From assembly GCF_014696315.1 (NCBI RefSeq), contig NZ_JACJPX010000027.1:1-64000 (forward strand): DNA of 64,000 nucleotides. Direction: 5' to 3'. The translations under genes and the position numbers were made by a program. Every line of letters starts with the position of its first letter. Position 1 is the first letter of the stretch. Source of the stretch: Calothrix membranacea FACHB-236. Its GTDB lineage: Bacteria; Cyanobacteriota; Cyanobacteriia; Cyanobacteriales; Nostocaceae. Shown here piece by piece: positions 12,313 through 46,082 of this stretch. Below the pieces are notes generated by a model. The model did not search any database and had not been told where the DNA came from. It worked only from the letters and a program-made list of their open reading frames with translations.

Positions 12313-12380
12313 TGTCGAAACATAATAAAGTTGTACAATAAATAATAAAGTTGTACAACACATAATAAAGTTATACAATT
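12313..12380 (+). promoter_or_regulatory. CAST left end with three TnsB-type sites; likely tns promoter
   Basis: Three copies of ATAATAAAGTTGTACAA-like sequence start at 12322, 12342 and 12362, exactly 20 bp apart; the third reads ATAATAAAGTTATACAA. The first is joined to the terminal TGTCGAAAC. The sites end only 44 bp before the tnsA start, so the tnsABC promoter must lie in or beside them. A TTGTAC ... TATACA pair at 12351-12377 is a possible but short-spaced -35/-10. TnsB binding here could repress its own operon (inference). Confidence 0.85.
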
Positions 12381-12424
12381 TTTCCTATGGGTGAGTATCA
12401 TTCCATCTGTAGGAGATTGTCTTT

Positions 12425-13243
12425 ATGGCTAGAACCAAGCAAGAGTGGACACAAGCTAAGTTTGAGCGCTACATGAAGGAAGGTCGAGGTCAGGGTAGTG
12501 GAAAAAATTATCAACCCTGGATAAAAATTCAAGATTTTCCGTCGAAAGGTAGGGTTTCCAGACCACCCGGTTGGAAAACAAACCGAGAGCATCATTTATT
12601 TTCCGATCATGAGAAACGGTTATTTTATTTGTTTGAGTGGTCGGACAGCATTATTGATATAAGGGAGCAATTTCCTTTACTTGACTTAGACTTAGCCATT
12701 AATATTGCTACGGAAATGGGGATTGACTATCCCAAAGATCCTAATAATGACACTCCCTATGTTTTAACTACAGACTTTATGTTATCTGTGAAGCAAGGGA
12801 ATCAGATAGTTGAAAAAGCGCGCACTTTCAAACTGGTTAAGGATTTAGGAACTAAATCTGTTGCTGAAAAATTTGAGCTAGAAAAGCGTTATTACGCAGC
12901 AAAAGGGATTGATTGGGGAATTATTACAGAGAAAGAAATTCCCATGTTTTTAGTCAAGAATGTTGAGTGGATTCATTCTAGTTATAAGTTAGAAGCAGCC
13001 GCAGAAATCAAGGTTGATGAGTTACATAACATCGCAAATATTTTAAAGTCAAAATTGCAAGAGAGTGATTCTACCATTAATAAAATTACCAATTCCTTAG
13101 ATAAAGAGATGAATTTAGAAGTAGGCACGTCACTATACATTTTTAAACATCTCCTCGCCAATAAGAAAATAATAATGGATATGCAAACACGCACAATATC
13201 TAGTTCTATTTCGTCTCGAGAAATTAAAAAAATTATTTTCTAA
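12425..13243 (+). CDS. tnsA: TnsA transposon endonuclease
   Basis: TnsA cuts the 5' ends of the transposon and with TnsB gives cut-and-paste transposition. The 272 residues match the family. The N-terminal PD-(D/E)XK-type nuclease domain shows Glu63 (SDHEKRLFYLFEW), Asp117 (LTTDFMLSV) and Lys136 (ARTFKLVKDL) in the order of the Tn7 TnsA catalytic residues. The C-terminal half (about 170-270) would be the TnsC-contacting domain. An AGGAG ribosome-binding site lies 10 bases before the ATG. The gene is first of the tns operon, 20 bp from tnsB. Having TnsA separate from TnsB distinguishes this element from I-B1 types with a fused TnsAB. A remnant of a second tnsA start lies at 45777-45819. Confidence 0.93.
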   Translation: MARTKQEWTQAKFERYMKEGRGQGSGKNYQPWIKIQDFPSKGRVSRPPGWKTNREHHLFSDHEKRLFYLFEWSDSIIDIREQFPLLDLDLAINIATEMGIDYPKDPNNDTPYVLTTDFMLSVKQGNQIVEKARTFKLVKDLGTKSVAEKFELEKRYYAAKGIDWGIITEKEIPMFLVKNVEWIHSSYKLEAAAEIKVDELHNIANILKSKLQESDSTINKITNSLDKEMNLEVGTSLYIFKHLLANKKIIMDMQTRTISSSISSREIKKIIF

Positions 13244-13263
13244 AACTTTATATTGTTCTTCCT

Positions 13264-15492
13264 ATGAATAAGAATTTGTTTGTTAATGACTTAATTGAGT
13301 GGGTTGACGAATTAGGAAACAATTTTGTAGAGAGAATTCTTTGGATTGATGAAGGTTACGTCATTGCCTTTACGATAGATATAAATGTCAAAACTGGATT
13401 TCCAGTCTCTAAAAGAGTCTCCGATATTCAGGCAGCAATTAGTGAAGGTCATGCATTGAAGCTAAAAACAGACCCTTGGGCAAGAATAGTTAGAGATGAA
13501 GACTTATCTGCTAAAGAAAAAGAAATTAGAGATAAGTATTGGGATATTATTTCACCTATAGTAATTCAAGAACCATCTATATACTATCGAGATAAACGAG
13601 GCTCACTCATTAAACAAGTTGTAGAAAAATATAATCATAATAGAAGTGAAGGAAAAATAATTGAAAGAAGCGTTTATCAGATTATTAGGAGATACTGGCA
13701 ACGAGGGAAAGATAAAAATTCTCTTTTACCTGATTATGCAAATTCTGGTGGTAAAGGCAAAGTAAGAGCATCTGGAGAGAAAAAAAGAGGAAGACCTAGA
13801 AAATATGCTCATGAGCCAGAAATCGGTATAGGTATAAATATAACCGATGAAGATAAGAAAATATTTAGATTAGCAGTTACTAAGTTTTATCACAATCAAA
13901 AGGAAAATTTTTTGACAACTGCCTATGATTTAATGATTAAAAACTACTATTCAGAGGAAACTATTTATGATGATAATGGTGTCAAAAAACATATATTAAT
14001 TCCCCCAGATAAACGACCGACATTAACCCAGTTTAAATATTGGTATGACGTTGAACAAGGGGACATTAGAAAGAAAATAATTTCTCGTAGGGGAGCTAAA
14101 AAATATGCTCTGGAACATAGAGCAATTACAGGCAACTCCACAATGGAAACTATTGGCCCTGGTTCTAGATACCAAATAGATGCGACAATCGCAGACGTTT
14201 ACCTAGTTTCTGCGTACAATCGCAACTGGATTGTTGGTAGACCTGTTATCTATGTGGTCATCGATGTTTTTAGCCGGATGATAACAGGAGTTTATGTTGG
14301 GTTTGAAGGCCCTTCTTGGATAGGAGCAATGATGGCTCTAGCAAATGCAGCCAGTAATAAAGTAGCATTTTGCAAAGAATACGGTATCGAGATTACAGAA
14401 GATGAATGGGCTTGTCATCATATTCCTGATGCAATTTTAGGAGATCGCGGCGAGTTAGCAGGAATGAAAGTAGAAACACTAATTCCCAATCTCGGTATTC
14501 GTATCGAAAATGCTGCACCCTACCGAGCAGATTGGAAGGGTTTAGTAGAAAGACATTTTGGCATCTTCCACGGTCATATAAAACCATTTGTGCCAGGTTA
14601 CATAGACAAAGATTTTAGGGAAAGAGGAGCAAGAGACTATCGACTTGATAGCAAGCTTGATATAGAGCAATTTACTGAAATCATTATTAAAATAATTCTC
14701 TACCACAACAATGAAAATTACTTAGATAACTATGAAAGAGATGAGGCAATGATAGCTGATGATATTCTCCCCATACCTAGAGAATTATGGCAGTGGGGAA
14801 TTGCAAATCGTTCGGGTAGACTTAGGACTATTCCTGAAGATATTGTTAAGCTGAATTTAATGCCAACAGAAAACGCAACGATTACAGAACGTGGCATTAA
14901 ATTTAAAGGAATGTACTACACGTGTGAAAAAGCAAAAAACGAATTTTGGTTTGAGAAAGCTAGGAGCAATTCACTTTCTAAATTAGAGAAGAAATTAGAA
15001 ATTTCATATGATATCAGAAAACCTGACTATATATATCTTCGTTCGCCTGATGGTAGAGACTTTGAGAAATGTTTTCTTTTAGAATCAGAATCAAAATATC
15101 TTAATAAGAATTTACATGAAATTGAATATTTATTTGCTTTTGAAGAGTTGCAGAAACAAAAAAATAAGGGTTTGAAACAGCAACAGAAAGTTGATTTAAT
15201 CACAGAAATTGAAAGTGTTGTTAATAAAGCAAAAAAAATGACCGAGGAAACGAAAGATGATAAACTGAGCAATAGAAAAAGAACCGCTGGTATTCGAGAT
15301 AATAGAAGTGTTGAAAAATCTAAACGTCGAGAAATTGAAGGTTTTGAATTAGAAAAGAGTGATAATAAAAATACTAGCAATACTGTGGATACTGAAAGTC
15401 AAAAAGTAGAGCAGCCACAATCATTGCAACCTAATTATCTTGATATTCTTCGACAGAAGCGAGAGGAACGAAAGCGTGAACAAGATAGATGA
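13264..15492 (+). CDS. tnsB: TnsB transposase (DDE integrase family)
   Basis: TnsB binds the terminal repeats, cuts the 3' ends and joins them to the target. The 742 residues include N-terminal DNA-binding regions with a basic stretch (KKRGRPRKYA, about 173-182). The rve/DDE catalytic core has Asp306 (SRYQIDATIADVYL), Asp394 (AILGDRGELAG) and Glu429 (WKGLVERHFGIFHG). A beta-barrel-like region follows, and the C-terminal tail is charged and probably flexible (about 630-742, KREERKREQDR at the end). In Tn7-like systems such a tail contacts TnsC. The gene overlaps the tnsC start by about 17 bp, so translation is likely coupled. All three catalytic residues are intact. Confidence 0.94.
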   Translation: MNKNLFVNDLIEWVDELGNNFVERILWIDEGYVIAFTIDINVKTGFPVSKRVSDIQAAISEGHALKLKTDPWARIVRDEDLSAKEKEIRDKYWDIISPIVIQEPSIYYRDKRGSLIKQVVEKYNHNRSEGKIIERSVYQIIRRYWQRGKDKNSLLPDYANSGGKGKVRASGEKKRGRPRKYAHEPEIGIGINITDEDKKIFRLAVTKFYHNQKENFLTTAYDLMIKNYYSEETIYDDNGVKKHILIPPDKRPTLTQFKYWYDVEQGDIRKKIISRRGAKKYALEHRAITGNSTMETIGPGSRYQIDATIADVYLVSAYNRNWIVGRPVIYVVIDVFSRMITGVYVGFEGPSWIGAMMALANAASNKVAFCKEYGIEITEDEWACHHIPDAILGDRGELAGMKVETLIPNLGIRIENAAPYRADWKGLVERHFGIFHGHIKPFVPGYIDKDFRERGARDYRLDSKLDIEQFTEIIIKIILYHNNENYLDNYERDEAMIADDILPIPRELWQWGIANRSGRLRTIPEDIVKLNLMPTENATITERGIKFKGMYYTCEKAKNEFWFEKARSNSLSKLEKKLEISYDIRKPDYIYLRSPDGRDFEKCFLLESESKYLNKNLHEIEYLFAFEELQKQKNKGLKQQQKVDLITEIESVVNKAKKMTEETKDDKLSNRKRTAGIRDNRSVEKSKRREIEGFELEKSDNKNTSNTVDTESQKVEQPQSLQPNYLDILRQKREERKREQDR

Positions 15493-17230
15493 TTGGAGAT
15501 GGGTTGATATTCCAAATGGTGAATCTGCTGCTGTAGCTAAATATAATGACCATAAATTACCAGAGTACAATAATCACCCTTTGATTCAAGCATTGCCTCC
15601 AATCCTTTCTGGAGAAGAATTTATTGAAAAAGCAATAATACTTCCCAGTTACGCGCCTGAAGAGAGGGAATTGGCTGCACACCGTCGATTTCACTGCGTT
15701 GAACGATTATCTAGATACTTTCAACCTTTGAATAAAACAGTCAATTTACAGCAGGTTATGTGTGCATTATTAATGCAGGGCTACATAGCACGTAATATTT
15801 CTAAACCTGAATATGCACGCCGATCCCGACAAATTTATGAAGCAATAAAAGCGGGAGATGGTAAAAATTTAGATGTTTATGTAAATGTTCCTACATCCAC
15901 ATCCGCATCTGGTTTAACATTAATTGGCCCATCAGGGATGGGTAAATCTACTAATTTTATTAATATTCTTAATTTATATCCTCAAGTAATTCTGCATCCA
16001 GAATACAGTACTTACCAAATTGTTTGGTTAAAAGTCGATTGTCCTCATGCTGGTTCTCTCAAAGGCTTATGTACAGATATATTTGTTGGTATAGATAGGC
16101 TACTGGGAACCAACTATTTCAAGAAATTTGGTGCATCACGAAATTCTGAAGATTATATGCTGGCTCAAGTCGCTCAAATCGCTCATACCCACCATTTGGG
16201 AGTTTTAGTGATTGATGAGATGCAAAATTTAGTGACAGCAAGAAGAAGTTGCTCTGATATGCTGAATTTCTTAGTAAAAATGGATAACATCATTGGAGTT
16301 CCTGTTATTCGTATTGGTACCAATGAAGCTTTTCCAATTCTTCAAGGTAATTTTAGAAATGCTAGAAGGGGAACTGGTGAAGGAAGCGTTATTTGGGACA
16401 GGATGAGAAATGATGATGAATGGTATTTTTTCATGGAGACCATGTGGGAGTATCAATGGACAAAAATATCTACTGATTTTTCTGATGAGCTTAATGATGT
16501 TTTTTATGATGAAAGTCAAGGAATTATTGATATTGCCATTAAGCTTTATAAAATGGTTCAATGGAGAGCTATTTCATTGAGTGGGAAAGAGGAAATAAAT
16601 GTCATTAAGCTTTATAAAATGGTTCAATGGAGAGCTATTTCATTGAGTGGGAAAGAGGAAATAAATGTCAATTTAATTAAACAATCTGCCAAAGACGGAT
16701 TATTTTTAGTAAAACCAATGCTAAATGCTATCCGCTCTGGAGACAAGGAATGGATGATTAAGTATAAAGATATAGCTCCTATTGATACTACAGAATATTA
16801 CAATAATTGTTTATCTAATTTAGAAACTAAGGATTTAAAAGAAATTAGCAGATTAGCGAAAAAACAGCAAACTGAAAATGGACATTTATCAGCAACTCAA
16901 CGTCATATAATTCTTAAACTTTTAGAATTAGATGTAGAACCACAATTAGCCAAAGAATGTGCAGCACAAGTAATTAATTCTGGCGAAGAAGATGCTGATA
17001 TTCCTATTTTGGTAAAACAAGCTTACGCTTTAGCTTTGGGGGGGCGAGTTCAAGGGACTACTGTAACGAAAGTGAAAACTCGCATACTAAAAGCAAAGCC
17101 AAAATATCAAGTAAATGATATTAGACAAATTGCGGAAAAAGCAAAGAAAAATCAAACTAGTGCATATGAAGGATTGAAATCGATAGGAATTATCAAAGAT
17201 CCAGTGCAGAATTTTATCACTATCACCTAA
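15476..17230 (+). CDS. tnsC: TnsC AAA+ ATPase with an internal 22-residue duplication
   Basis: TnsC is the ATP-dependent regulator that forms filaments on target DNA and links TniQ/TnsD target selectors to TnsA-TnsB. I chose the GTG at 15476 (584 residues) because a GAGAGGA ribosome-binding site precedes it; an upstream TTG at 15440 is less likely. Walker A is GPSGMGKS (about residues 151-158) and Walker B is VLVIDE (about 243-248). In the lid region after the core, a block beginning IKLYKMVQWRAISLSGKEE is present twice in direct tandem (about residues 355-376 and 377-398), encoded by a perfect 66-bp repeat. The family normally has one copy of this KLYK-AQWRA-type segment. The frame is kept, but the fold may be disturbed. 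It is followed after 4 bp by tniQ. Confidence 0.9.
   Translation: MNKIDDWRWVDIPNGESAAVAKYNDHKLPEYNNHPLIQALPPILSGEEFIEKAIILPSYAPEERELAAHRRFHCVERLSRYFQPLNKTVNLQQVMCALLMQGYIARNISKPEYARRSRQIYEAIKAGDGKNLDVYVNVPTSTSASGLTLIGPSGMGKSTNFINILNLYPQVILHPEYSTYQIVWLKVDCPHAGSLKGLCTDIFVGIDRLLGTNYFKKFGASRNSEDYMLAQVAQIAHTHHLGVLVIDEMQNLVTARRSCSDMLNFLVKMDNIIGVPVIRIGTNEAFPILQGNFRNARRGTGEGSVIWDRMRNDDEWYFFMETMWEYQWTKISTDFSDELNDVFYDESQGIIDIAIKLYKMVQWRAISLSGKEEINVIKLYKMVQWRAISLSGKEEINVNLIKQSAKDGLFLVKPMLNAIRSGDKEWMIKYKDIAPIDTTEYYNNCLSNLETKDLKEISRLAKKQQTENGHLSATQRHIILKLLELDVEPQLAKECAAQVINSGEEDADIPILVKQAYALALGGRVQGTTVTKVKTRILKAKPKYQVNDIRQIAEKAKKNQTSAYEGLKSIGIIKDPVQNFITIT
16537..16668 (+). repeat. Perfect 66-bp tandem duplication within tnsC
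   Basis: The unit CATTAAGCTTTATAAAATGG... at 16537-16602 is repeated without any mismatch at 16603-16668. The flanking bases differ on the left, and two more bases match on the right. The unit is 22 codons, so the frame is preserved. Perfect identity suggests a recent event or an assembly artefact. Confidence 0.97.
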
Positions 17231-17234
17231 TTCT

Positions 17235-18182
17235 ATGCTTAGTTTTTTCCCAAACCTATATCCTGATGAACTGTTATATAGTGCTTTGGCTAGATATCAT
17301 ATCCGAAGTGGCAATAAAACCTTCAAGCAAACTGACTTAGAACTATTTAGTTACAGTTCTCAACAGTTATGTAAAGTTACTTTAACCAATAATTTGAATT
17401 ATTTAATTAAAAACTTGTCTTTATTTTCTCAGTTAACAGTTAGCGATTTGCTACAAAATCATACTCTATACCCTTTTTATTCAACTTTCTTAATACCCCA
17501 GCAAGCTTGGCAATTACAAGACTCTATGAAGAACAAGCTAAGTGGCTCTATTCTAGAGGTTGCAAAAGTAGCTAATTATCCTACTGAAAACTTAACAAAG
17601 TTTTTAAAGTTTTGTCCTGTGTGTCTAGAAAAAGATACACAGGAATATGGTGAACCATACTGGCATAGAATTCACCAAATACCAGGTATATTAGTTTGTC
17701 CCACCCATAGAATTATTTTGCATGATAGCTCTGTCGCTGTTGATTCTAAGGGTATACATTATCATGCTGCGAGTCCAGAGAACTGCCTGTGCAATCAAAA
17801 TCAAGTCAAATATACTGATAGCACTGTAGAAAAATTATTAATCTTGGCTCAGGATATTTGGGATACAAGTAATATCAATATTTCTTTTAAAGGTTTGGCT
17901 TGGCTCCGCAATCAATATCAGTCCTATTTAACTAATCAAAAGTTTATGAACCTCCTACCTGGGGGTAAATTTAGATTTAAACAAAAATCTTTTTCAAATT
18001 CCATCCGTGATTGTTATGGACAAGAGTTTTTAGAAATAATTAATCCAAATTTAATCAAAAATCCAGACAAATACTTTTCAAGTTATTTACTGGGTTGTGA
18101 TCTGAATCCAGTAATTGACCGGATTACACATATATTGATAATAAAATTTTTAGCTAATTCTGTAGAAAGATTTTTTACCTAA
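17235..18182 (+). CDS. tniQ: TniQ (short), Cascade-associated target adaptor
   Basis: This 315-residue TniQ-family protein starts MLSFFPNLYPDELLYSALAR, the family's usual N-terminus. A zinc-finger cluster covers about residues 131-157 (FCPVCLEKDTQEYGEPYWHR, then LVCPTH). In CASTs the short TniQ binds Cascade and recruits TnsC for RNA-guided insertion. It is homologous over its first 300 residues to the longer TnsD at 23736-25646 but lacks the TnsD C-terminal DNA-binding half. It lies 4 bp after tnsC and so is part of the same operon; a 160-bp gap then separates it from cas6. Confidence 0.92.
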   Translation: MLSFFPNLYPDELLYSALARYHIRSGNKTFKQTDLELFSYSSQQLCKVTLTNNLNYLIKNLSLFSQLTVSDLLQNHTLYPFYSTFLIPQQAWQLQDSMKNKLSGSILEVAKVANYPTENLTKFLKFCPVCLEKDTQEYGEPYWHRIHQIPGILVCPTHRIILHDSSVAVDSKGIHYHAASPENCLCNQNQVKYTDSTVEKLLILAQDIWDTSNINISFKGLAWLRNQYQSYLTNQKFMNLLPGGKFRFKQKSFSNSIRDCYGQEFLEIINPNLIKNPDKYFSSYLLGCDLNPVIDRITHILIIKFLANSVERFFT

Positions 18183-18342: not shown

Positions 18343-19011
18343 ATGAGTGATAATTTTCACGTATCAACTCAGAACCATGCCACAGAGGTCTTAAATCCTC
18401 AGTTAATGTATGTGGACTTAAGCTTTCGTGTAATTGGTCAGACTTTACCCATAGACCACGGCTATGGTTTATATGCTGCACTGACTCACTTACAGGACAA
18501 ACTTCATTCTCTAGATGACCTTAGTATTCAAACTATTCCTGGCATTCCTGATGGCAACGATTCACTTCATCTTAATAACCACTCTAGGCTTCGGATTCGG
18601 CTACCAGTAGACAAGATACCTTTAGTTTATCCGTTTGCAGGTAAATCACTAACAATTGGCAGGCATAAGATTCGTTTAGAAATTCCCCAAATGTATCTCC
18701 TTCAGGCAGTGGAGAAATTGCGATCGCGTATTGTGGTTATCAAAGGATATGAAGAACCAGACGCTTTTTTAGCAGCAGCGCAGCGTCAACTGGAAAGACT
18801 AGGTATCAAGGGAATAGCCAGTATACCTACTAAAGCTGATGGCAAACCAGAACGCAGAAGTATAAAAATTAAGAAATTTACAGTAGTAGGTTTTGGATTG
18901 GAGGTAACAAATTTAAGCGATGAAGATTCAATAACCTTGCAAAAATACGGTGTCGGCGGGAAGCAAAAAATGGGTTGTGGAGTATTTGTACCAGTTAACG
19001 AAAAGCGATAG
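18343..19011 (+). CDS. cas6: Cas6 crRNA-processing endonuclease (MYXAN/I-B type)
   Basis: Cas6 cuts the CRISPR transcript in each repeat to release crRNAs and usually stays on the crRNA 3' hairpin. The 222 residues match Cas6/Cmx6-type proteins. A Gly-rich loop near the C-terminus (KYGVGGKQKMGCGVFVPV, about 200-217) is the family signature. The likely catalytic His is in the N-terminal region (DHGYGLYAALTHL, about 38-50), as inferred from the family. It is the first cas gene, 17 bp before cas8. The hairpin in the repeat (GCC-GTTA-GGC) is a suitable substrate. Confidence 0.87.
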   Translation: MSDNFHVSTQNHATEVLNPQLMYVDLSFRVIGQTLPIDHGYGLYAALTHLQDKLHSLDDLSIQTIPGIPDGNDSLHLNNHSRLRIRLPVDKIPLVYPFAGKSLTIGRHKIRLEIPQMYLLQAVEKLRSRIVVIKGYEEPDAFLAAAQRQLERLGIKGIASIPTKADGKPERRSIKIKKFTVVGFGLEVTNLSDEDSITLQKYGVGGKQKMGCGVFVPVNEKR

Positions 19012-19028: not shown

Positions 19029-20561
19029 ATGATAAATACAACAGCTAACTCCAAAATTCAGTTAAATCTGGGTGACTCTAGTACTACTTTATTACATCGC
19101 GCAGGAATAGCAGGATTTTGGATGACGCTTAAACAGTTGGAAAAAATATATCCAAATCCTGCTCAACGTACTGGTAATTTAACCTGGGTGCTAACACCCC
19201 ATAGCATCAGTCTTAACTGGGAAGGGCAGGATTTTGCAGCTTTAGACTGGTTGCTAAAGCAATCTTTTCAAATTAGTGATGAAGGTTTAATCTCCTTAAC
19301 AGGATTAAACCTATATGCAATGGATATTGAAAGACAAATAATAATCCATCAAGGTATTACAGGAACTTTTTTACAGCATAATAAGTTTTTCAAATCTTCA
19401 AACAAGAAATTAAAGCCTCTAATTGTTGACGGCAAAAAATTTGTGACTGAGTACAAAAGTGCTATATCTTATGCTCATCAACACTTTGCTATACAGTTGT
19501 GTGACGAATCCGGACAATTTTTACAAGAGCCAATTGGTATAGTAGGTTGGCTCTATCCAGGAGCAGTAGTTCGTCACTATGCTTTTAAAGAACAAACTCA
19601 ATTTGAAGAAAAACCAGAGTATGCCCTAGCTTTATTGTTTGCTCCTGTGGCTTGCCATTATTTCATTTTGAGATCGCACACCAAACCCCAATCTACAAAG
19701 TATATTCTGGTTGTCCCTGAAGTAAATAATTTAGAGCTTTACGCCCAGCATTACTGGACTCTGAGTAATTTGAGTTACAGAGATTTTCATGTATCTAGCT
19801 TAAGAGACGCTGGATTAAAATTACTGACTAATCAAGCAACAATACAGATAAAACAAAATTGTGTTAAGCGATGTCAGGTTTTTTCTTTTGGTAAGCTAAT
19901 TTGGTCAGGAAAGCAAAAAGTTCGTACAGAAACAGCAACATTAGAGCTAACGGAAAAAGTGAGCTTCTACTATAAGCTTAGTCGCAGTTGTTTCCCTAAT
20001 TACCGAATCGTTTACTATGGAAATCAACATTTTCTCCTTACAAGTCTATTTCAAGGAATAATTGCTAATAATTTAGGTTTGGGGTTGCCTTGGTGGAATG
20101 ATTTTGGAAACATACTTACATCTAGTAATTTGTTTAATCAAATAGCTGACGAAAATCAAGGTATTTATACGATGATTCAAGAGTCTGAATGGGACATAAA
20201 ATCGCAAAAGCTGTTTATCAAAGCTTGTCATGAAGCATTAAAGGTAACATACGCCAAAATTTATTCCCGAGCCAAGGAAAATGAATACGCTCAAATTGAA
20301 CGAGAAAATACAAAAATTATATCTCAACTAGGACGCTGCACTAATGCTGAAAATTTTAGGAAATTTATTGCGGAATTTTGGGGTAAAGCAGGGCAGCTTT
20401 CAATTCTACAAGAACACTGGGAAGAATTACTACCCATAACAACAGGTATGATGAATTGGAAAATGGCTAGGGATTTAACTTTTATTGCAATTGCTAGTTA
20501 TCCAAAAACTAAGAACATCAAGCCTGAATCATCAGAAATATCTCAGACAAGTAGTGAATGA
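19029..20561 (+). CDS. cas8: Cas8 (Cmx8-like) large Cascade subunit
   Basis: Cas8 is the large subunit of the type I effector, recognising the PAM and stabilising target unwinding. The 510 residues and the N-terminus (STTLLHRAGIAGFWMTLKQL) resemble Cmx8-type proteins of MYXAN I-B systems, which are poorly conserved. No nuclease motif is visible. The position between cas6 and cas7 supports the call more than sequence does. In CASTs this subunit also helps position TniQ. The next cas gene starts about 57 bp later. The C-terminal part (about 400-500) is alpha-helical and charged, as expected for a small-subunit-like region. Confidence 0.8.
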   Translation: MINTTANSKIQLNLGDSSTTLLHRAGIAGFWMTLKQLEKIYPNPAQRTGNLTWVLTPHSISLNWEGQDFAALDWLLKQSFQISDEGLISLTGLNLYAMDIERQIIIHQGITGTFLQHNKFFKSSNKKLKPLIVDGKKFVTEYKSAISYAHQHFAIQLCDESGQFLQEPIGIVGWLYPGAVVRHYAFKEQTQFEEKPEYALALLFAPVACHYFILRSHTKPQSTKYILVVPEVNNLELYAQHYWTLSNLSYRDFHVSSLRDAGLKLLTNQATIQIKQNCVKRCQVFSFGKLIWSGKQKVRTETATLELTEKVSFYYKLSRSCFPNYRIVYYGNQHFLLTSLFQGIIANNLGLGLPWWNDFGNILTSSNLFNQIADENQGIYTMIQESEWDIKSQKLFIKACHEALKVTYAKIYSRAKENEYAQIERENTKIISQLGRCTNAENFRKFIAEFWGKAGQLSILQEHWEELLPITTGMMNWKMARDLTFIAIASYPKTKNIKPESSEISQTSSE

Positions 20562-20618
20562 TTAGAATTTTTTCTATTTTTTTAAATCAATGATGTTAAA
20601 TTTTTGGGTAAATCCTCA

Positions 20619-37200: not shown

Positions 37201-38210
37201 GGTGTGGCACCTAATGGCAAATAAATATCTCCCGTGGTCAAACGGTGTACTGATAATGCCGCAATAATTCGCAGTGCCATTGGCTTATAAGCAGGACGAG
37301 TGAAAGCTTGGCGAATTCGTGCTTCTAACACCTGCGAGCAATCAATCACTGCCCGAATATCAGGATCTGAACGAAAAGAAGGGTTTTCTTTGAGATTGTC
37401 CCAATAGCTATCGTAGGCAATTAAACCAGGTGATTCTTGAGACACATCCTGATTAATTAATTTCCGCATAGCCAAAGATAAAGTTTTGAGTACCTCCCGC
37501 CTTTCTGCAACAGTAATCCGCTCGAAGGTATCAATATAATCAGGATGAATAGGGAATAGTCGAACAAACTCATCCATCCGCTCATTCATATTGCCGTAAA
37601 ATTTGGCGAATGGTGTGAGATGTTCTCGAATTTTTACTAATTGGTCAGCGGTTTTCTTTAAAAGACGTTCTGCTACTACATATTTAATATCTCTACGGGC
37701 AATTAAAAGTTGTTCAAAACGGTCTTGAACTCGGCGAATGGCATCTGCAACAAATTCAAAACGTTGACTATCAAACAGTGTCTCTTGCAAGCCTGCAATG
37801 AAGCGAAATTTCAGGTCTTTACAGACTTCACCGATTTCTCGTAAAAAAGTCAGGTCGAGAATAATGGCTTGGTCTTTGCGGGTACGTAAATAATCTAGCA
37901 GTTCGTCTACCACAAACAGCAAACCTTGGTCTGGAAATTGCTGGTGGAATAAAACCATCATGTCTTCAAAGACACCTTTATGATTGGGAATTGTGTCTTG
38001 TGGCGGAAACTGAAATTTAATTCCCCATTGTTGGAGTGCTTCTTCTAACTGGGAACAAACGAACTCACGCAAGTCCATCGTTGTCGAACCAAGTTCTGTG
38101 CGAACTACCTTGAACTTTCCAGCGATGGGACGCGCACTTTCCGCAACTTGGGCATTTTGCAGATGGGTGGAGAGTTCAGCGTGTTCTGCGATCGCACTCA
38201 ATACTGACAT
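34254..38210 (-). CDS. In-frame fusion of BrxC (part) and PglX adenine methylase (part)
   Basis: This 1318-residue open frame joins two BREX-3 genes. Residues 1-630 are BrxC-like (DUF6079 ATPase family): [38 protein letters not shown] (Walker B type), and [20 protein letters not shown] near the end. From about residue 631 ([19 protein letters not shown]) it is PglX-like, with a CPEC...CPHC zinc motif (644-674), the methylase motif IV DPPFGG (885-890) and a C-terminal helical region. The joint is at about 36,321. Missing are the BrxC C-terminal part and the PglX N-terminus with its usual WWARRP-type region. The BrxC P-loop (GNYGTGKSH, coded just upstream at 38214-38240) is in this frame but before the first ATG. 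Probably non-functional or altered. Confidence 0.82.
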
Positions 38211-38245
38211 TAGGTGAGACTTACCAGTACCGTAATTTCCTACAA

Positions 38246-38437
38246 TCAGAATACCTTATTGTCCGCAGGCTGCTCAAACTGCAAATTAGGAAAAACCACA
38301 GTTGCAAGCCGCTCCCCCATTTCCTCAGAAATTACATAAGTAGTAACTAGTCGCTGTGCCTCAGCCAATTCGCTAGCATTCTGTAACTGAATTACAGTTT
38401 CAATAGGCTCAAATTGAATTAACTCACCGTATTTCAT
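38246..38437 (-). pseudogene. brxC: 5' part of brxC, cut off by a 1-bp frameshift
   Basis: The 63-codon frame starts [20 protein letters not shown], the expected BrxC N-terminus, and runs to [10 protein letters not shown] and a stop at 38246. Adding one G to the GG at 38254-38255 (minus strand reads AATAAGGTATTC) restores [20 protein letters not shown] and joins the downstream frame. So a G was lost from a short G run, directly before the Walker A motif. The stop (TGA) overlaps possible CTG/ATT restarts, but no good start exists there. It lies 22 bp after brxF. Confidence 0.85.
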
Positions 38438-38459: not shown

Positions 38460-38984
38460 CTAGCTGAGGTCAGCTTCTGCCTGTTCTAGGTTAACCACTA
38501 AAAAATCCGCTGTGGGATAACGGCGGTATTCAGCATGACCTGGTTCGGCATAAATTAGTTGGTTGTTTTCAATTATACCGCTCCATACGGCAACAATGAT
38601 GCGATTGCGGGCTAACTTCTGGAGACACCGTAAAGGGTCGAGTTTGAGAGAGCTATCAAACAGAATCTCCAAATGCTCCAAAAAAATTACCTCATTAACA
38701 GTATTCCCAATTATGTCTTCTAGTAATCCTTGCACTTTTAGTGCTCTTTGCCGCTGCGTCAACTCCAACAATAGCCTGCTCAATTCTAGGTTGACGTTGA
38801 TATATCGGCTATTGCTGGACTGGGCAATTTGCTGGAAGTTGATTTTGGGAGTGCGATAACTTTGCCCAAAGCAGGCTTCGCATGAAACTATAATCAGCCG
38901 ATAGTATAGTTCTGCTACTTGGGGAAAGTAACTGCTAATTTTTGTGGATATTAATTCATACTCAACAATATTTTGGTTGTTCAA
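38460..38984 (-). CDS. brxF: BrxF, BREX-3 P-loop protein with a degenerate P-loop
   Basis: This 174-residue protein is first in the BREX-3 operon. BrxF is a small P-loop protein specific to type 3 systems. The family body is clear: YINVNLELSRLLLELTQRQR, VIFLEHLEILFDSSLKLDPL and LIYAEPGHAEYRRYP. The P-loop position (residues 35-42) reads CEACFGQS, where GxxxxGKS or GKT is expected. The first Gly and the Lys are absent (Gly to Cys, Lys to Gln), each explained by a single base change. ATP binding is probably lost. Otherwise the frame is intact, and it ends 22 bp before brxC. Confidence 0.8.
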   Translation of the reverse strand: MNNQNIVEYELISTKISSYFPQVAELYYRLIIVSCEACFGQSYRTPKINFQQIAQSSNSRYINVNLELSRLLLELTQRQRALKVQGLLEDIIGNTVNEVIFLEHLEILFDSSLKLDPLRCLQKLARNRIIVAVWSGIIENNQLIYAEPGHAEYRRYPTADFLVVNLEQAEADLS

Positions 38985-39906: not shown

Positions 39907-41169
39907 ATGATTAACTCTCAGTTAGGCACAATCCTTGAGCGTTATAAGACGGAAATTGAGAGACTAAAAGTGACTGACACTTCCATAGATGCCGAACAGG
40001 TGTTAGAAGTATTAAATGCCAGGGATACTGTGCAGTTAGCCTTAAAGGGTTCAACATTTATTCCTACCAGTAGGTTAAAGCAGGTTCTAGAGTTAGATAC
40101 AGAACTCAGGAAACAGGCAATACAGATTAACAAAGTTATCAAAGCTGAACAATTTGCTCAGTGGAGAGAAAGTATACATCCCCCTGCTGAAGCTTGGTGG
40201 TGGAGATTAGAAAATCTTACCCCTCCCCACAAGTGGGATAGTTTAGATTGGTTGTGGAAGGGTCTAGTAGTTGCTGGCTGGACTGCTAACCTCAGTTTAC
40301 TGATTAATATTGCTACTCGCTTTTTCAGTGGGGGAGCAGGATTATTGGGAGCTTCTGCTGTTATTTTGCCGAGTATTTTGGCATTACTACAGGCAAGTAG
40401 TGAACTAACTAAAGCTGGTAAAGAAGGATTTGAAAAGTTACTGACAAAGCTAAATATTCCCCAACACTTACAAGAAGAAGCTAAGTTGGGATCAACTTTG
40501 TTAATGACAATATTTTTACTTAGTTTTTGGTTGCTTCTACCGTCAATTTCTCAGTTATATAACCGTAACGGGCTAAATAATTACTTACAGGGAAAATTAG
40601 GGGCAGCAGAACAAGACTACCTCAAAGCCATTTCCTTGGATGCCGATAATGCAGATGCTCATTATAATCTCGGCAATCTTTACGAGGATTTACAAGATTT
40701 TGAGAAAGCACGGAAGCATTATCAAATCGCCGTAGGAAGTGATATTCCTGATGCTTACAACAATCTAGCTCGCTTATATATCCAGGATAAAAAATATTCC
40801 CAGGCTAGAGCTTTGCTACAAAACGGACTGGTGAAAGCTAATGAGCAGAATAGCTCACCCGAAGTTAGATATAGCCTGTTTAAAAATTTAGGATGGGTGA
40901 GGTTTGAGCAAGGCAGATATGAAGAAGCACAACAAACCTTACAAGCAGCAATTGGGATTGCAAATAACCCAGAGGTTGCAAAGTATATCCAAAATACTGG
41001 TGCGGCACACTGTATCTTAGCTCAGGTAATGGAGCAGCAAAAACAACCAACTGCATTGGAGCAATGGCAGAAGTGCTGTGAACAAGGTTCTACCCTCAAT
41101 GCTGATGAAGACACATGGTTACATATAGCTCGGCAAAGATTAAAAAAAGCGGGAAGAGTATGCAAATAG
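39907..41169 (+). CDS. Membrane-anchored TPR protein
   Basis: This 420-residue protein has a coiled-coil-like charged N-terminus (about 1-85). Two or three hydrophobic segments follow at about 118-165 (LVVAGWTANLSLLINIA, LLGASAVILPSILALL) and 200-215 (LLMTIFLLSFWLLLPSI). TPR repeats run from about residue 225 to the end (NADAHYNLGNLYEDLQDFEK, DAYNNLARLYIQDKKYSQAR). The TPR part is probably on one side of the membrane as a protein-binding platform. It is the first gene of a three-gene operon and overlaps the next by 10 bp. Function unknown; its neighbour is a CHAT protease-like protein. Confidence 0.75.
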   Translation: MINSQLGTILERYKTEIERLKVTDTSIDAEQVLEVLNARDTVQLALKGSTFIPTSRLKQVLELDTELRKQAIQINKVIKAEQFAQWRESIHPPAEAWWWRLENLTPPHKWDSLDWLWKGLVVAGWTANLSLLINIATRFFSGGAGLLGASAVILPSILALLQASSELTKAGKEGFEKLLTKLNIPQHLQEEAKLGSTLLMTIFLLSFWLLLPSISQLYNRNGLNNYLQGKLGAAEQDYLKAISLDADNADAHYNLGNLYEDLQDFEKARKHYQIAVGSDIPDAYNNLARLYIQDKKYSQARALLQNGLVKANEQNSSPEVRYSLFKNLGWVRFEQGRYEEAQQTLQAAIGIANNPEVAKYIQNTGAAHCILAQVMEQQKQPTALEQWQKCCEQGSTLNADEDTWLHIARQRLKKAGRVCK

Positions 41170-42254
41170 ACCGGAAAATAATTAGGTTCGTTGCCATCTT
41201 ACTAAGCCTACCTTTTATAACGGTAGCAAGACCTGGGCTTACTCAACAGAATAGTCTAAGTTTTATCTCCGAAGTTAAGGGAGATGTCAAAATTAAATAT
41301 TCTGGACGCAAGAACTATCAAAAAGCATATAGCGGCGAAATACTAAGTTCTTCTGATTCTTTGCGATTGGGACAAGGTGCTTCTACAAAAGTTGTATGTA
41401 ATAACTTATCGATTTGGAATATTAAATCTCCAGGGGAATTTTCAGTTGCTAGTGGTTGTCCATCCACTGGAAAACCAGTTCTTGTCAGAAATGGTAGTAA
41501 CCGCGCTCCGACTCGCGCTCCCAATGACCCGACAATTCCCTACATCATTAGTCCGCGTGATACAGCAATTTTGAGTGATAAACCTACTCTGCGTTGGAAT
41601 GCTGTTAAGGGTGCAACTAGCTATAAGGTGACGTTACGCGGCCCTGGCGTTAATTGGACAACTAATGTGAAGCAGTCAGAAGTTGTTTTTTCTGGTCAAG
41701 AACCTCTACAGCCAGGTTCTCGTTATCGAGTAGTTGTGACTGCTGATAATGGAGCAACTTCTGAGCGTGAAGCACCTGTTGGATTCACTTTACTGAGTGA
41801 AGGGGAGGCTCAACAGGTAAAAGCTGAAATTACACAATTACAAAAGCAACCGCTAACCGATGAATCTAAAAACCTTGCTTTGGCATATCTGTACCAAAGC
41901 AAGAATTTAAATTCTGCGGCAATTGATTTATTAGCAGGCTTAGTTAAGCAAGAAAACCAAAGCACAGCCGTTTATCAACTTTTAGGTAGTCTCTACCAAG
42001 AAGTAGATTTACATCTATTAGCTAAAGAACATTACTTAACAGCACTGAAGTTAGCTAAGGCAGACAAAAATCTGGAAGCTCAAGCAACTATTCAAGCCAG
42101 CTTAGGGGAAATTGATATAGTTCTTGACAACTTGCAGCAGGCGTTTGAGTCATTGCAAGCTGCTCAAAATAACTATCGTGCCTTGGGAGATGAGCAACAA
42201 GTACAGCAACTACAGCAGAAACTAGATGACTTGAAAGGAAGGCTACCATCATGA
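41160..42254 (+). CDS. Secreted FecR-like protein with TPR-like C-terminus
   Basis: I start at the ATG 41160 (364 residues; MQIDRKIIRFVAILLSLPF), which gives a signal peptide and overlaps the upstream stop; the frame is open further upstream by chance. The region about 35-95 (SEVKGDVKIKYSGRKNYQKA) resembles a FecR-type domain. A fibronectin-like part follows (PTLRWNAVKGATSYKVTLRG, about 140-200). The C-terminal 150 residues contain TPR-like helices. It is probably periplasmic. Its last four bases overlap the start of the TPR-CHAT gene (ATGA), so the genes are co-translated. Role unknown. Confidence 0.72.
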   Translation: MQIDRKIIRFVAILLSLPFITVARPGLTQQNSLSFISEVKGDVKIKYSGRKNYQKAYSGEILSSSDSLRLGQGASTKVVCNNLSIWNIKSPGEFSVASGCPSTGKPVLVRNGSNRAPTRAPNDPTIPYIISPRDTAILSDKPTLRWNAVKGATSYKVTLRGPGVNWTTNVKQSEVVFSGQEPLQPGSRYRVVVTADNGATSEREAPVGFTLLSEGEAQQVKAEITQLQKQPLTDESKNLALAYLYQSKNLNSAAIDLLAGLVKQENQSTAVYQLLGSLYQEVDLHLLAKEHYLTALKLAKADKNLEAQATIQASLGEIDIVLDNLQQAFESLQAAQNNYRALGDEQQVQQLQQKLDDLKGRLPS

Positions 42255-45200
42255 ATAACCTGCGAACTAGACAATTAGTAACCCTAACAACTTTGGTAGC
42301 AACAGCTGGATTATGGGTGTTAACGCCAAAGCCCACAATTGGGCAATCAAACCCTCCTGTTTCTGCTGCTCAGTCTGCGGAATTGGCAGAAGCAGACCGA
42401 CTTGAGCAACAGGCAGGCAAACTTGAGAATCAAAGAAAATATAATGAAGCAATTCCTCTACGGGAACGTGTTTTGAATATCCGTAAAAAGGTTCTGGGGG
42501 ATAACCGTCTTGATTTGGTAACTAGCTTGAATTATCTGGCAGGTCTGTACCAAAGCCAGAGACGGTACACAGAAGCCGAATCTCTGTATCGCCAAGCTTT
42601 AGCAATTATAAAACGCCGATTGGGCGAGCAGGATCTTGAGGTGGCAAATAGCTTGAATTATCTGGCAGATCTGTACCAAAGCCAGGAACGCTATGCAGAA
42701 GCCGAATCTCTATATCGCCAAGCTTTAGCAATTATAAAACGCCAGCTGGGTGAGCAGGATCTTGAGGTGGTAACTAGCTTGAATTATCTGGCAGATCTGT
42801 ACCAAAGCCAGAAACTGTACGCAGAAGCCGAGCCTCTATTGCGCCAAGCTTTAGCAATTATAAAACGCGAGTTCGGGGAAAAGGCTCCTCTTGTGGCAGA
42901 TCACTTGAATCGTCTGGCAGCTCTGTACCAAAGCCAGGAACGGTACACAGAAGCCGAATCTCTGTATCGCCAGGCTTTAGAAATGAAAAAACGCCAATTG
43001 GGTGAGCAGGATCTTGAGGTAGCAATTAGCTTGAATGAGCTGGCTGGGGTTTACGACAGCCAGGGGCGGTACGCAGATGCCGAACCCCTCTATCGCCAAG
43101 CTTTAGCAATTATAAAACGCCAGCTAGGTGAGCAGCATCCTTATGTGGCAACTAGCTTGAATAATCTGGCATTGCTGTACCAAACGCAGGGGCGGTACGC
43201 AGAAGCCGAGCCTCTATTGCACCAAGCTTTAGCAATTATAAAACGCCAGCTAGGTGAGCAGGATCTTGAGGTAGCAACTAGCTTGAATAGTCTGGCTGCG
43301 GTTTACCACAGCCAAGGACGGTACACAGAAGCCGAATCTCTGTATCGCCAAGCTTTAGAAATGAGAAAACGCCAACTGGGTGAGCAGCATCCTGATGCGG
43401 CAACTAGCTTAAGTAATTTGGCAATGCTTTACGAAAGGCAGGGACGGTATGCAGAAGCCGAGCCTCTATTGCGCCAAGCTTTAGAAATCAGAAAACGCCG
43501 ACTGGGTAATGAGCATTCCGATGTTGCACAAAGCTTGAACAATCTGGCTGGGGTTTACTACAGCCAGGGACGGTACGCAGAAGCCGAGCCTCTATTGCGC
43601 CAAGCTTTAGAAATCAGAAAACGCCGACTGGGCAATGAGCATCCCGATGTTGCACAAAGCTTGAATAATCTAGCTGGGGTTTACAACAGCCAGGGGCGGT
43701 ACGCAGAAGCCGAACCCCTCTATCGCCAAGCTTTAGAAATGAGAAAACGCCTGCTGGGTGAGCAGCATCCTAGTGTGGCAAATAGCTTGATTAATCTGGT
43801 TTTTCTGTACTGGCAACAACATAACACAAGCCGCGCTCTTGAGTTTTTCACACAACAAATTACGGTTGAAGAACACAACCTCACTCCCAACTTGGCTGTT
43901 GGTTTTGAAAGACAAAAACGCGATTATGTAATACATAATATCTCTGGCACGACGAATGCTAGCATTTCCTTAAATCTAAATTTTGCCCCTAACAACCCTA
44001 TAGCTACTAGCTTAGCCCTGAATACAGTTTTACAACGCAAAGGACGCATTTTAGATGTCGTCACTAATAGCCAACAAATTCTACGCCAAAATCTCGACTC
44101 ACAAAGTCAAACTCTATTAACGAATCTAGAAAACGCCCAAACTCAACTAGCCAATCTATTTTATAACCGACCAGAGAAACTTCCTCTGGAGCAGTATCGG
44201 ACTCAAGTTGCCCAACTTGAAACCCAAGTAAAACAACTAGAAGACCAACTGAGTCGTCGCAGCCAAGAATTTCGTACTCAGTCACAGCGTGTCACCATTG
44301 AAACTATTCAAACATTAATTCCTGCTGATGCTGCTTTGGTCGAAATAGTCCGCTATCGACCTGTTAATCCTAAAGCAGCACCTGACGAAGGCTTGGGCAA
44401 ACCTCGTTACGCAGTATACGTCCTTTCTGCAAAAGGAGAACCCAAAGGTATTGACTTAGGCGATGCTGCAACAGTTGAGCAAACTCTAGTACAATTCCGT
44501 GATGATTTGCGGGATCAAAATACTCCTATCTCTCAAGTGAAACAGTCGGCTCGTGAGTTGGATAAAATTCTCATGCAGCCTGTACGCAAACTGTTGGGTA
44601 ATACTCGCAAAATTTTACTCTCTCCAGATAGTCAGTTGAACCTGATTCCCTTTGAAGCACTAGTAGATGAAAATAACCGTTACTTAGTAGAAAACTATTC
44701 TTTCACTTACCTCACCTCTGGACGAGACTTGCTCAGAGTACAAAACAAACCTGCCAGTAAACAGCCGCCAGTTATTATTGCTGACCCAAATTTTAATCGT
44801 CCTGGTGAATTAGTTGCACGTCAAACTCAGAGTAATGTTGATACCAAAAATACCCGCTCTATTGACCTATCCCAGAAAGTATTTTCCCCCCTCCCAGGTA
44901 CAGCACAAGAAGCCAAGGCCATTGCCAGTCTATTAAAAATCCAACCTCTTACAGACACTAAGGCTACTGAGGGTGCTGTGAAACAAGTTAACGGCCCCAG
45001 GATTCTGCATATTGCCACACACGGTTTTTTTGAAAATACCTCAGCAAACGAAGAGAAAACCATAGTTGATGATAATCCTCTACTGCAATCAGGATTAGTT
45101 CTAGCTGGCTTAAAACCTCGTCAGAGTAGTGGCGAAGATGGCATTCTCACTGCCCTGGAAACCACTGCACTTAATCTAGTTGGTACAAAACTGGTGGTAC

Positions 45201-45496
45201 TATCTGCCTGTGATACTGGTTTAGGTAACATTTTTGCGGGTGAAGGCGTTTATGGTTTACGTCGTGCTTTAGTCATTGCTGGTTCTGAAAGCCAAGTCAT
45301 CAGCCTGTGGAAGGTAGCAGATGATGCTACTAAAGATTTTATGGTGGCTTACTACCAAAGATTATTAGATAATCAAGGACGCAGTGAAGCACTACGCCAA
45401 ACGCAACTAGAGATGTTAAATGGTGAAAAGTATCAGCATCCCTACTTCTGGGCTGCTTTTATCCCTTCCGGTGATTGGAAACCGATGGGTAAGTGA
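42251..45496 (+). CDS. TPR-CHAT protein (caspase-like peptidase family)
   Basis: This 1081-residue protein has a signal-like N-terminus (about residues 8-26, LVTLTTLVATAGLWVLTPK). About eleven 42-residue kinesin-light-chain-type TPRs follow (about 50-520, with the motif YAEAEPLYRQALAI). After a coiled-coil linker (about 600-680) comes a C-terminal CHAT domain (about 730-1078) with the His-Cys pair His924 (LHIATHGFF) and Cys987 (VLSACDTGLG). CHAT domains belong to the caspase-like peptidase clan. Such proteins are common in filamentous cyanobacteria; some relatives act in antiphage defence, but this is not shown here. The TPRs are very similar at DNA level, suggesting recent duplication. It is the last gene of its operon. 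Confidence 0.88.
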   Translation: MNNLRTRQLVTLTTLVATAGLWVLTPKPTIGQSNPPVSAAQSAELAEADRLEQQAGKLENQRKYNEAIPLRERVLNIRKKVLGDNRLDLVTSLNYLAGLYQSQRRYTEAESLYRQALAIIKRRLGEQDLEVANSLNYLADLYQSQERYAEAESLYRQALAIIKRQLGEQDLEVVTSLNYLADLYQSQKLYAEAEPLLRQALAIIKREFGEKAPLVADHLNRLAALYQSQERYTEAESLYRQALEMKKRQLGEQDLEVAISLNELAGVYDSQGRYADAEPLYRQALAIIKRQLGEQHPYVATSLNNLALLYQTQGRYAEAEPLLHQALAIIKRQLGEQDLEVATSLNSLAAVYHSQGRYTEAESLYRQALEMRKRQLGEQHPDAATSLSNLAMLYERQGRYAEAEPLLRQALEIRKRRLGNEHSDVAQSLNNLAGVYYSQGRYAEAEPLLRQALEIRKRRLGNEHPDVAQSLNNLAGVYNSQGRYAEAEPLYRQALEMRKRLLGEQHPSVANSLINLVFLYWQQHNTSRALEFFTQQITVEEHNLTPNLAVGFERQKRDYVIHNISGTTNASISLNLNFAPNNPIATSLALNTVLQRKGRILDVVTNSQQILRQNLDSQSQTLLTNLENAQTQLANLFYNRPEKLPLEQYRTQVAQLETQVKQLEDQLSRRSQEFRTQSQRVTIETIQTLIPADAALVEIVRYRPVNPKAAPDEGLGKPRYAVYVLSAKGEPKGIDLGDAATVEQTLVQFRDDLRDQNTPISQVKQSARELDKILMQPVRKLLGNTRKILLSPDSQLNLIPFEALVDENNRYLVENYSFTYLTSGRDLLRVQNKPASKQPPVIIADPNFNRPGELVARQTQSNVDTKNTRSIDLSQKVFSPLPGTAQEAKAIASLLKIQPLTDTKATEGAVKQVNGPRILHIATHGFFENTSANEEKTIVDDNPLLQSGLVLAGLKPRQSSGEDGILTALETTALNLVGTKLVVLSACDTGLGNIFAGEGVYGLRRALVIAGSESQVISLWKVADDATKDFMVAYYQRLLDNQGRSEALRQTQLEMLNGEKYQHPYFWAAFIPSGDWKPMGK

Positions 45497-45776
45497 GTTA
45501 GTTTTGCGAGGTTTGGCGATCCTTTCATATTATCGGCTCAACATGAAATAGAGTGCGATCGCTATCAAGTTTCTTTTTGTATTGTATGCAAATCATTGGA
45601 AGTTGCTTAGGGTTGCGATCAGCTCATTAGCTTAATTGCGATCGCATCTTTGTCGCACAACAGAACTTTCCAAGATAATTTTGAACTTATGAAATTACTC
45701 AAAACCTTTATTAGTAAAGTGTTTACAAAATTGCTCATTGGGGATAGATATTGCGATCGCCTTCAAGAGATTTCTT
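45497..45776. other. Region before the tnsA remnant, possible decayed left end
   Basis: No gene is present. The stretch 45705-45776 aligns in spacing with the left-end-to-tnsA DNA: TTAGTAAAGTGTTTACAAAA resembles a degraded TnsB site (ATAATAAAGTTATACAA), and the AAGAGATTTCTT before the ATG resembles AGGAGATTGTCTTT. Confidence 0.45.
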
Positions 45777-45819
45777 ATGGCTAGAGGAATGCGAGAGTAG
45801 ACGCAAGCTCAGTTTGAGC
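45777..45819 (+). pseudogene. Remnant of a second tnsA start
   Basis: The 43 bases match the first 43 bases of tnsA (12425 onward) at 35 positions, starting ATGGCTAGA and ending CAGTTTGAGC. The frame reads MARGMRE and then a stop (TAG where tnsA has TGG), followed by TQAQFEL. Similarity ends abruptly after 45819. This is a decayed piece of another tnsA, in the same orientation as the intact one. Confidence 0.75.
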
Positions 45820-45944
45820 TTTAACTCTTGCAGTTCTCTAGTAATTTTCCTAAGTGTGTTATGACTGCTTAGGGAGGTTTTTTCAACAAATGATCAACTG
45901 AAAATATATTGCCTGAAAAGCCTATATGGTAAGCTTTTGATAAA

Positions 45945-46082
45945 TTGTATAACTTTTTTATTTATCAATATGAAGAATACTTCGGAAAATGTACAACTTT
46001 ATTTTTTGAGGTTAAGATAAGTAGTAATGCTAATATAAGAGTTGTAGATGTTTAAATTGTAGAACTTTATTATATTTCTACA
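45945..46082 (-). promoter_or_regulatory. CAST right end with TnsB-type sites
   Basis: Sites read toward the element are at about 45945-45962 (TTGTATAACTTTTTTATT), 45990-46006 (TGTACAACTTTATTTTT), a weak one at about 46042-46058, and 46057-46073 (TTGTAGAACTTTATTAT). The last joins the terminal TTTCTACA. The inverted orientation relative to the left end and the final ACA followed by GTAAT define the boundary. Confidence 0.85.

Follow-up and report, generated by a model that had tools for sequence, protein, structure and literature searches.

The window analysed here, a stretch of 64,000 nucleotides from Calothrix membranacea FACHB-236, carries downstream of glmS a CRISPR-associated transposon (CAST), within which a small gene beside tnsD is predicted to encode two forms of a regulator by programmed −1 frameshifting (Table 1). 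The genes for transposition and target selection lie in the order tnsA, tnsB, tnsC, tniQ, cas6, cas8, cas7, cas5, CRISPR array and tnsD, and all of them have open frames. The best PDB matches of TnsB, TnsC and TniQ are Tn7 proteins, and the stretches of Tn7 TnsA and TnsB that bear the catalytic residues, at what we take to be their positions, align with conserved letters in the window proteins. For tnsD, ATG 23736 is more likely to be the start than TTG 23628. No Cas3, Cas1 or Cas2 was found with Pfam among the 18 open reading frames (ORFs) of at least 174 aa in the element, with ORFs of 80–117 aa scanned in part, and Rfam returned no matches within 9000–50000.

The element begins at 12313 with TGTCGAAA and finishes at 46082 with ...TTTCTACA, and its insertion point lies 25 bp downstream of the glmS stop. 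The matching ends, the perfect GTAAT duplication and the length of 33,770 bp put forward in the original prediction were borne out by the sequence, with the correction that the string common to both borders is in fact 9 bp long (CAGTAATTG). Elements of the Tn7 type have TGT/ACA termini and duplicate 5 bp, a rule that places the exact cut within this shared string. The two ends follow the right/left pattern of Tn7, with abutting sites at one end and spaced sites at the other, and all six 20-bp end sites belong to one sequence type. An empty site of the kind that the original prediction had proposed as a check was found in the same-genus N. linckia FACHB-104 (G004), in which the joined flanks match in 427 of 453 columns (94%) and run uninterrupted across the junction. 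The five bases at this site are GGGAT, as against GTAAT in the window, so that it is collinearity, not an identical duplication, that confirms the site. The joined-flank query, with the element removed, matched somewhere in all eight same-genus genomes, its own included, and the junction was aligned in G004 only.

By its anatomy, the element classifies as a type I-B1 CAST, and a complete one. TnsA and TnsB are separate, the transposase is Tn7-like and a full TnsD accompanies an insertion at the glmS attachment (att) site; there is no TnsA–TnsB fusion and the att site is not a tRNA gene. TniQ consists of a TniQ domain plus a partial TnsD domain (Pfam) alongside type I-B cas6-8-7-5, consistent with an origin as a shortened TnsD, and its sole PDB match, even at E ≤ 10, is Tn7 TnsD. 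The original prediction was right about a complete CAST at glmS with TnsD and TniQ–Cascade, and about every gene it listed (separate tnsA and tnsB, tnsC, tniQ, cas6-8-7-5, array and tnsD); it erred in naming the subtype I-B2 and overlooked the mixed module relationships, the broken bacteriophage exclusion (BREX) cargo and the regulator described below. What speaks for I-B2 is that the window Cas8 resembles I-B Cas8 in the PDB, a structure which we take to be that of the I-B2 PmcCAST. PmcCAST shares with the window a type I-B Cascade and two TniQ-domain proteins; unlike the window, it has a TnsAB fusion and a tRNA att site (PMC11406308). Published accounts describe I-B1 elements as Tn7-like, with separate TnsA and TnsB and a glmS-targeting TnsD, and tie I-B2 to a TnsA–TnsB fusion and a TnsD aimed at tRNA genes (PMC11406308; PMC12719977; for I-B1 also PMC10293859). 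Since these two defining features, fusion and tRNA site, are contradicted, we reject I-B2 as scarcely tenable, the class resting on anatomy, reviews and PDB matches and the trees below holding no I-B2 reference. The closest elements located are Nostocaceae insertions, either at glmS or within comM; no TnsC match was found in genome L084 (Myxacorys californica). The arrangement is that of the I-B1 element AvCAST/Tn7743 of Anabaena variabilis, which likewise has separate TnsA and TnsB, TnsC, TniQ, Cas6-8-7-5 and a TnsD directed to glmS, in the same gene order. Genome G473, which is probably the AvCAST strain, shares the layout, the regulator and the palindromes with the window and differs in tnsABC (62–67% identical), in its end-site type and in the tnsC duplication of the window.

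Different parts of the element have different nearest relatives. Compared with the I-B1 CAST of N. linckia FACHB-104, which interrupts a gene other than glmS (presumably comM, as recognised from its N-terminus), TnsA, TnsB and TnsC are 96, 99 and 93% identical, and TniQ and Cas8 are 61 and 62% identical. Compared with the glmS element of N. carneum, TnsA, TnsB and TnsC are 61, 66 and 70% identical, and TniQ, Cas6, Cas8, Cas7 and Cas5 are 95, 94, 92, 98 and 97% identical. TnsD is 92–93% identical to those of G473 and N. parmelioides and 64% to that of N. carneum. At the DNA level the nearest relative switches where tnsC ends and tniQ starts. The 60-bp step beginning at 17208 is 95% identical to N. 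linckia and 80% to N. carneum, and the next step 78 and 97%, respectively. Near-identity to N. linckia extends from about 13423 to 16602; identity over 16668–17267 is 82–98%, no better than to Dendronalium. The trees behave in the same way (17 rows for TnsABC, 16 for TniQ-Cas, 10 for TnsD and 14 for GlmS, L076 and others being dropped for low coverage). The window groups with N. linckia in the TnsABC tree (100/99), where grouping with N. carneum is rejected by the approximately unbiased (AU) test (p-AU 2e-88); with N. carneum in the TniQ-Cas tree (100/99), where grouping with N. linckia is rejected (p-AU 1.5e-6); and with N. parmelioides and G473 in the TnsD tree (100/99), where grouping with N. 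carneum is rejected (p-AU 5e-50). N. parmelioides and G473 are split alike, as they are sisters in TniQ-Cas and fall in separate clades in TnsABC. By eye, the type of TnsB site tracks the tnsABC clade, and both ends of the window element are of the type seen at the left end of the N. linckia element, the far end of which was not found by a flank-pattern search.

Because the modules have different nearest relatives and their trees conflict, we conclude from the sequence comparisons that the ends with tnsABC, the tniQ-cas block and tnsD are modules that have been exchanged between I-B1 lineages, in one direction or the other. The glmS genes, as a measure of host kinship, are identical to that of the window at 98.0% of DNA positions in N. 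linckia, 94.6% in G007, 92.0% in G003, 91.8% in N. carneum and 80.1% in Dendronalium. The stretch from tnsA to the front part of tnsC is 98.5% identical in DNA between the window and N. linckia, so that its closeness is as host kinship predicts, which does not hold for tniQ-cas. In Dendronalium, whose kinship as a host is much more remote, tnsABC and tniQ-cas are combined as in the window, to which their proteins are 89–95% identical, which implies that the element or parts of it crossed genera. This shared combination also raises the question of whether the window keeps the original arrangement and N. linckia and N. carneum are the recombinants, for which we see nearly an even chance. In the window, tnsB–tnsC resembles N. 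linckia (DNA near 100%) more than Dendronalium (92–98%), and tniQ-cas for the most part resembles N. carneum more than Dendronalium; one exchange or more may therefore be recent. A conflict produced by differing evolutionary rates, with no exchange at all, has a negligible chance of being correct, as the order of relatedness flips between adjacent 60-bp steps and the AU tests reject the alternative groupings. Separately, an I-B1 remnant adjoins glmS at 7758–17810 of L246 (G417), in which cas genes, the regulator and tnsD were found, but neither tnsABC nor the first part of tniQ.

On the minus strand between the array and tnsD, and divergent from tnsD, lies the regulator gene. Twelve copies, that of the window counted, were present among 217 genomes of the family at an identity of at least 72%. 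In all 12 the zero frame ends at 76–79 aa, a −1 extension of 47–64 aa follows, and GGAGG stands exactly 13 nt 5′ of a heptamer that reads A_AAA_AAG in 11 copies and the imperfect C_AAA_AAG in the other. Over the first 17 codons of the extension, the ratio of non-synonymous to synonymous differences (pN/pS) takes values of 0.35, 1.07 and 0.94 in the −1, zero and +1 frames, respectively; in the −1 frame it is 0.55 over the whole extension and 0.23 for the N half, and pN is lower than pS in 64 of 66 pairs for the extension. These values suggest that purifying selection acts on the extension as read in the −1 frame and in neither of the other two. The locus combines a slippery heptamer in the zero frame, an upstream Shine–Dalgarno sequence at 13 nt and selection on the shifted frame, and would specify a predicted ribbon-helix-helix (RHH)-like regulator, made as a short form and, by programmed −1 frameshifting, as a longer one. 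Shine–Dalgarno stimulators of −1 frameshifting are described 9–14 nt upstream, and A_AAA_AAG is the site of Escherichia coli dnaX (PMC5009743). The regulator shares both features with dnaX-type sites; it is unlike dnaX in that the long form is the shifted product, in that the gene is presumed to regulate a transposon and in its uncertain 3′ hairpin.

Other ways of expressing, or not expressing, the −1 frame fit these data less well. Independent translation of the two halves, from an internal start with coupling, could make use of the GGAGG as an initiation Shine–Dalgarno sequence, and overlapping coupled genes are common, but we consider it unlikely: between the last upstream stop in the −1 frame and the slip site there is no ATG, GTG, TTG or CTG in any of the 12 copies (30 codons being examined in the one copy without an upstream −1 stop), and the GGAGG lies at a distance suited to −1 frameshifting beside a slippery heptamer. 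Slippage of RNA polymerase on the A run, which is six long in 11 of the 12 copies, is very unlikely to be the source of the long form, given that six A residues are short for such slippage, that G378 has five A only and that the fixed 13-nt spacing of GGAGG would be left without a role. It is highly improbable that the regulator is a pseudogene whose frame was lost once before the copies diverged; a single ancestor would explain why the break falls at the same place in all of them, but the −1 frame is open for its 47–64 codons in every copy and pN/pS is low in that frame and close to 1 in the others. We therefore favour programmed −1 frameshifting.

The history of the gene and its relatives can be followed further. 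The N half of the window regulator is nearest to that of G473 (97%), and the extension is nearest to that of Dendronalium (91%, vs 65% for G473), whose contig stops inside tnsD. A further copy, in G161 (L165), is split by about 2 kb beside tnsD. In a wider search, 27 of 388 genomes of the order, themselves taken from a larger group, matched at E ≤ 1e-14, including the known G000, G417, G378 and G161; among the 18 weaker relatives listed (L193–L210), A_AAA_AAG near the end was seen only in L193, the interrupted G161 copy. A wider cyanobacterial family (L195, L196 and similar) joins the N-terminal domain of the regulator to other, single-frame C-terminal parts. Among known CAST proteins, Arc_1 and Arc_2 of type V-K elements are likewise small ribbon-helix-helix proteins encoded in reverse beside a CAST gene; unlike the regulator, they are of 53–72 aa and lie next to cas12k, and the main text of their description mentions no frameshift (PMC9938897). 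The open-licence literature searched yielded no account of a CAST regulator made by frameshifting.

Pairs of palindromes, 34 or 36 bp apart and with 0–3 mismatches each, were found upstream of 10 of the 12 regulators. At no more than two mismatches, the palindromes occur nowhere else in the window, and two matches were reached in 2 of 100 shuffles. Furthermore, 10 of the 11 long TnsD-like matches listed (E 1e-61 or better) adjoin a regulator by coordinates, one being the split copy; the eleventh is that of Calothrix. We infer that the regulator is a two-isoform repressor limiting TnsD homing. If the element is mobile, TnsA and TnsB would excise and join it, and TnsC would connect them to one of two target selectors: TnsD, directing the element to the glmS att site, which would be the route of the present insertion, or TniQ, which together with the Cas6-8-7-5 complex and CRISPR RNAs (crRNAs) from the array would direct it elsewhere. 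The regulator gene would give rise to the short RHH-like protein and, through frameshifting at A_AAA_AAG, to the longer form; one or both would bind the two palindromes and repress tnsD as well as the regulator's own divergent promoter. By eye the tail of the long form looks helical, and it could serve in oligomerisation or in contacts with another Tns protein. In AvCAST, RNA-guided insertion reportedly rises threefold when TnsD is removed (PMC12719977), so that repression of tnsD would alter how the element divides between remaining at glmS and crRNA-guided spread.

The elements inserted in comM in N. linckia FACHB-104 and Nostoc sp. WHI bear on this proposal. Besides its close TnsA, TnsB and TnsC, the N. 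linckia element has the same type of TnsB site as the window. A single TniQ-family match was obtained in each of the genomes G004 (N. linckia) and G408, which indicates that neither has a TnsD. The palindromes were not found in the comM-element loci L070 and L071, and neither the G004 nor the G408 genome has a close regulator, one 42% match lying elsewhere in G408. Spacer 3 of N. linckia matches the interrupted gene in 33 of 36 positions, beside an ATG and 50 bp from the element end, which fits the RNA-homing subgroup described in PMC11406308. A near-identical transposase core therefore appears to be paired with two homing modes in two close hosts, glmS/TnsD in the one and RNA-guided insertion into comM in the other. 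We lean, if only slightly, towards the view that I-B1 CASTs choose between homing and RNA-guided spread by means of a dedicated tnsD repressor with two isoforms produced by −1 frameshifting. The repressor, its operators and tnsD would then constitute a homing module, which would allow nearly the same core to be paired with glmS/TnsD here and with RNA-guided comM insertion in N. linckia. We are considerably more confident that, taken as a whole, the data are best explained by an I-B1 CAST with exchanged modules and a −1-frameshifted RHH-like repressor of tnsD.

Several points weigh against this explanation. An alignment of 10 of the 12 copies shows no covariation in the hairpin downstream of the heptamer, and folding of four sequences gave z-scores of between −1.5 and −4.1 for it. 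The RHH_1 match (E 0.015) falls below the Pfam cut-off, and the fold model of the 76-aa regulator is poor (mean predicted local distance difference test score 65.5). The 12 copies, with N halves of 71–98% DNA identity, are related and so do not represent 12 independent events. Two regulators are without a palindrome pair, in G432, where the contig ends after 165 nt, and in G436, where no tnsD was found in the 13.5 kb read; the tnsD of Calothrix L068 has a different neighbour gene, and no consensus sigma-70-like promoter was found in the gap between regulator and tnsD. As to the transposase, tnsC contains an exact in-frame tandem duplication of 66 bp (16537–16602 and 16603–16668) that is missing from both of the close relatives with which it was aligned, N. 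linckia and Dendronalium; the 22 added residues may impair TnsC, or the duplication may be an assembly error. Finally, the groups submitted to the AU tests were picked after the identity table had been seen, and the model behind the trees was plain LG+G4, which for the TniQ-Cas set came with a long-branch warning.

With respect to the array, the degenerate sixth repeat and the spacer preceding it (22897–22937) are common to Dendronalium L065 and are probably the oldest, decaying end. A homing crRNA in this degenerate repeat was considered and rejected, the last spacer and repeat being shared with Dendronalium and the sequence that follows being, by eye, unlike glmS or comM. When the full array was searched for targets, 12 of 72,556 plasmid records and 42 of 50,697 phage records were matched, in every case weakly or through the repeats, and eight same-genus genomes gave repeats and weak matches only. 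Stretches of 22–25 bases from the five spacers (two with one or two free positions) produced one match in viral contigs. This match, of spacer 1 (28 of 38 bases), had no AT or ATG at the expected place and was judged to be due to chance.

Defence genes as cargo of Tn7-like elements are already known (PMC8649781). Here the cargo includes a BREX cluster (26573–38984) in the order brxF, brxC, pglX, the gene for the protein with a RecG C-terminal-like domain, brxH, pglZ and brxA, in which BrxC and PglX are not intact: the brxC ORF covers its profile to position 701 of 1231 only, and the pglX part matches from 237 of 919. From these lesions we expect the cluster to be inactive as BREX. Relatives of the BrxC-PglX product were matched in 3 of the 217 family genomes, one match being the window's own and the other two covering the product in part. 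Between the BREX cluster and the genes for tetratricopeptide repeat (TPR) proteins, a lone TnsB-type site followed by ...GCTACA (39326–39350) resembles the outermost part of the distal end; the two inner end sites were not found there, and the site may be a fossil end of an earlier or tandem element.

Table 1. Positions of features at the glmS locus and within the element
Feature	Position	Strand	Basis or remarks
CAST element	12313-46082		33,770 bp; TGT...ACA ends, GTAAT on both sides
Target-site duplication GTAAT, glmS side	12308-12312		
Target-site duplication GTAAT, distal side	46083-46087		
glmS, attachment gene, outside the element	10410..12287	+	translation
glmS-side end (Tn7 right-end equivalent)	12313..12379		three abutting 20-bp TnsB-type sites
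Distal end (Tn7 left-end equivalent)	45942..46082		three spaced TnsB-type sites
tnsA	12425..13243	+	Pfam TnsA N and C domains; aligns to Tn7 TnsA
tnsB	13264..15492	+	Pfam; PDB match to Tn7; alignment with Tn7 TnsB
tnsC	15440..17230	+	Pfam; PDB match to Tn7
Switch of nearest relative, N. linckia (upstream) to N. carneum (downstream)	17208..17327		two 60-bp steps at tnsC stop/tniQ start
tniQ, target selector of the CRISPR route	17235..18182	+	Pfam, PDB
cas6	18343..19011	+	TIGR02807
cas8	19029..20561	+	TIGR03485/03486; PDB I-B Cas8
cas7	20604..21617	+	TIGR02585
cas5	21619..22251	+	TIGR02586
CRISPR array	22529..22937	+	five 35-36-nt repeats and one degenerate repeat
Regulator gene	23048..23442	-	zero frame from ATG 23442, 76 aa, stop ending ~23212; heptamer A_AAA_AAG from 23224; -1 extension of 56 aa to 23048
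Palindrome TAGGTATTGTGTAATGCCTA, proposed operator 1	23526..23545		
Palindrome, proposed operator 2	23562..23581		36 bp from the first
tnsD, glmS homing	23736..25646	+	TnsD Pfam E 6e-127; longest ORF from TTG 23628
brxA	26573..27316	-	PADLOC
pglZ	27322..29346	-	Pfam, PADLOC
brxH helicase	29337..32129	-	Pfam, PADLOC
Protein with RecG C-terminal-like domain	32129..34057	-	Pfam
Damaged brxC/pglX	34254..38437	-	frame change near brxC Walker A; rest of brxC fused in frame to 5'-truncated pglX
brxF	38460..38984	-	PADLOC
TPR protein	39907..41169	+	Pfam
Protein without clear family	41115..42254	+	
TPR-CHAT protein	42251..45496	+	Pfam

In itself, the element is one more I-B1 CAST, ordinary and well delimited. 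We found no description of the control of type I-B CASTs in the literature searched, and the AvCAST assay offers a direct test of the putative frameshifted regulator beside tnsD and its paired palindromes. Overall, three parts, tnsABC with the end sites, tniQ-cas and tnsD, act as modules open to exchange, and the occurrence of a near-identical transposase core with both TnsD-homing and RNA-homing elements suggests which parts to keep together in engineering.

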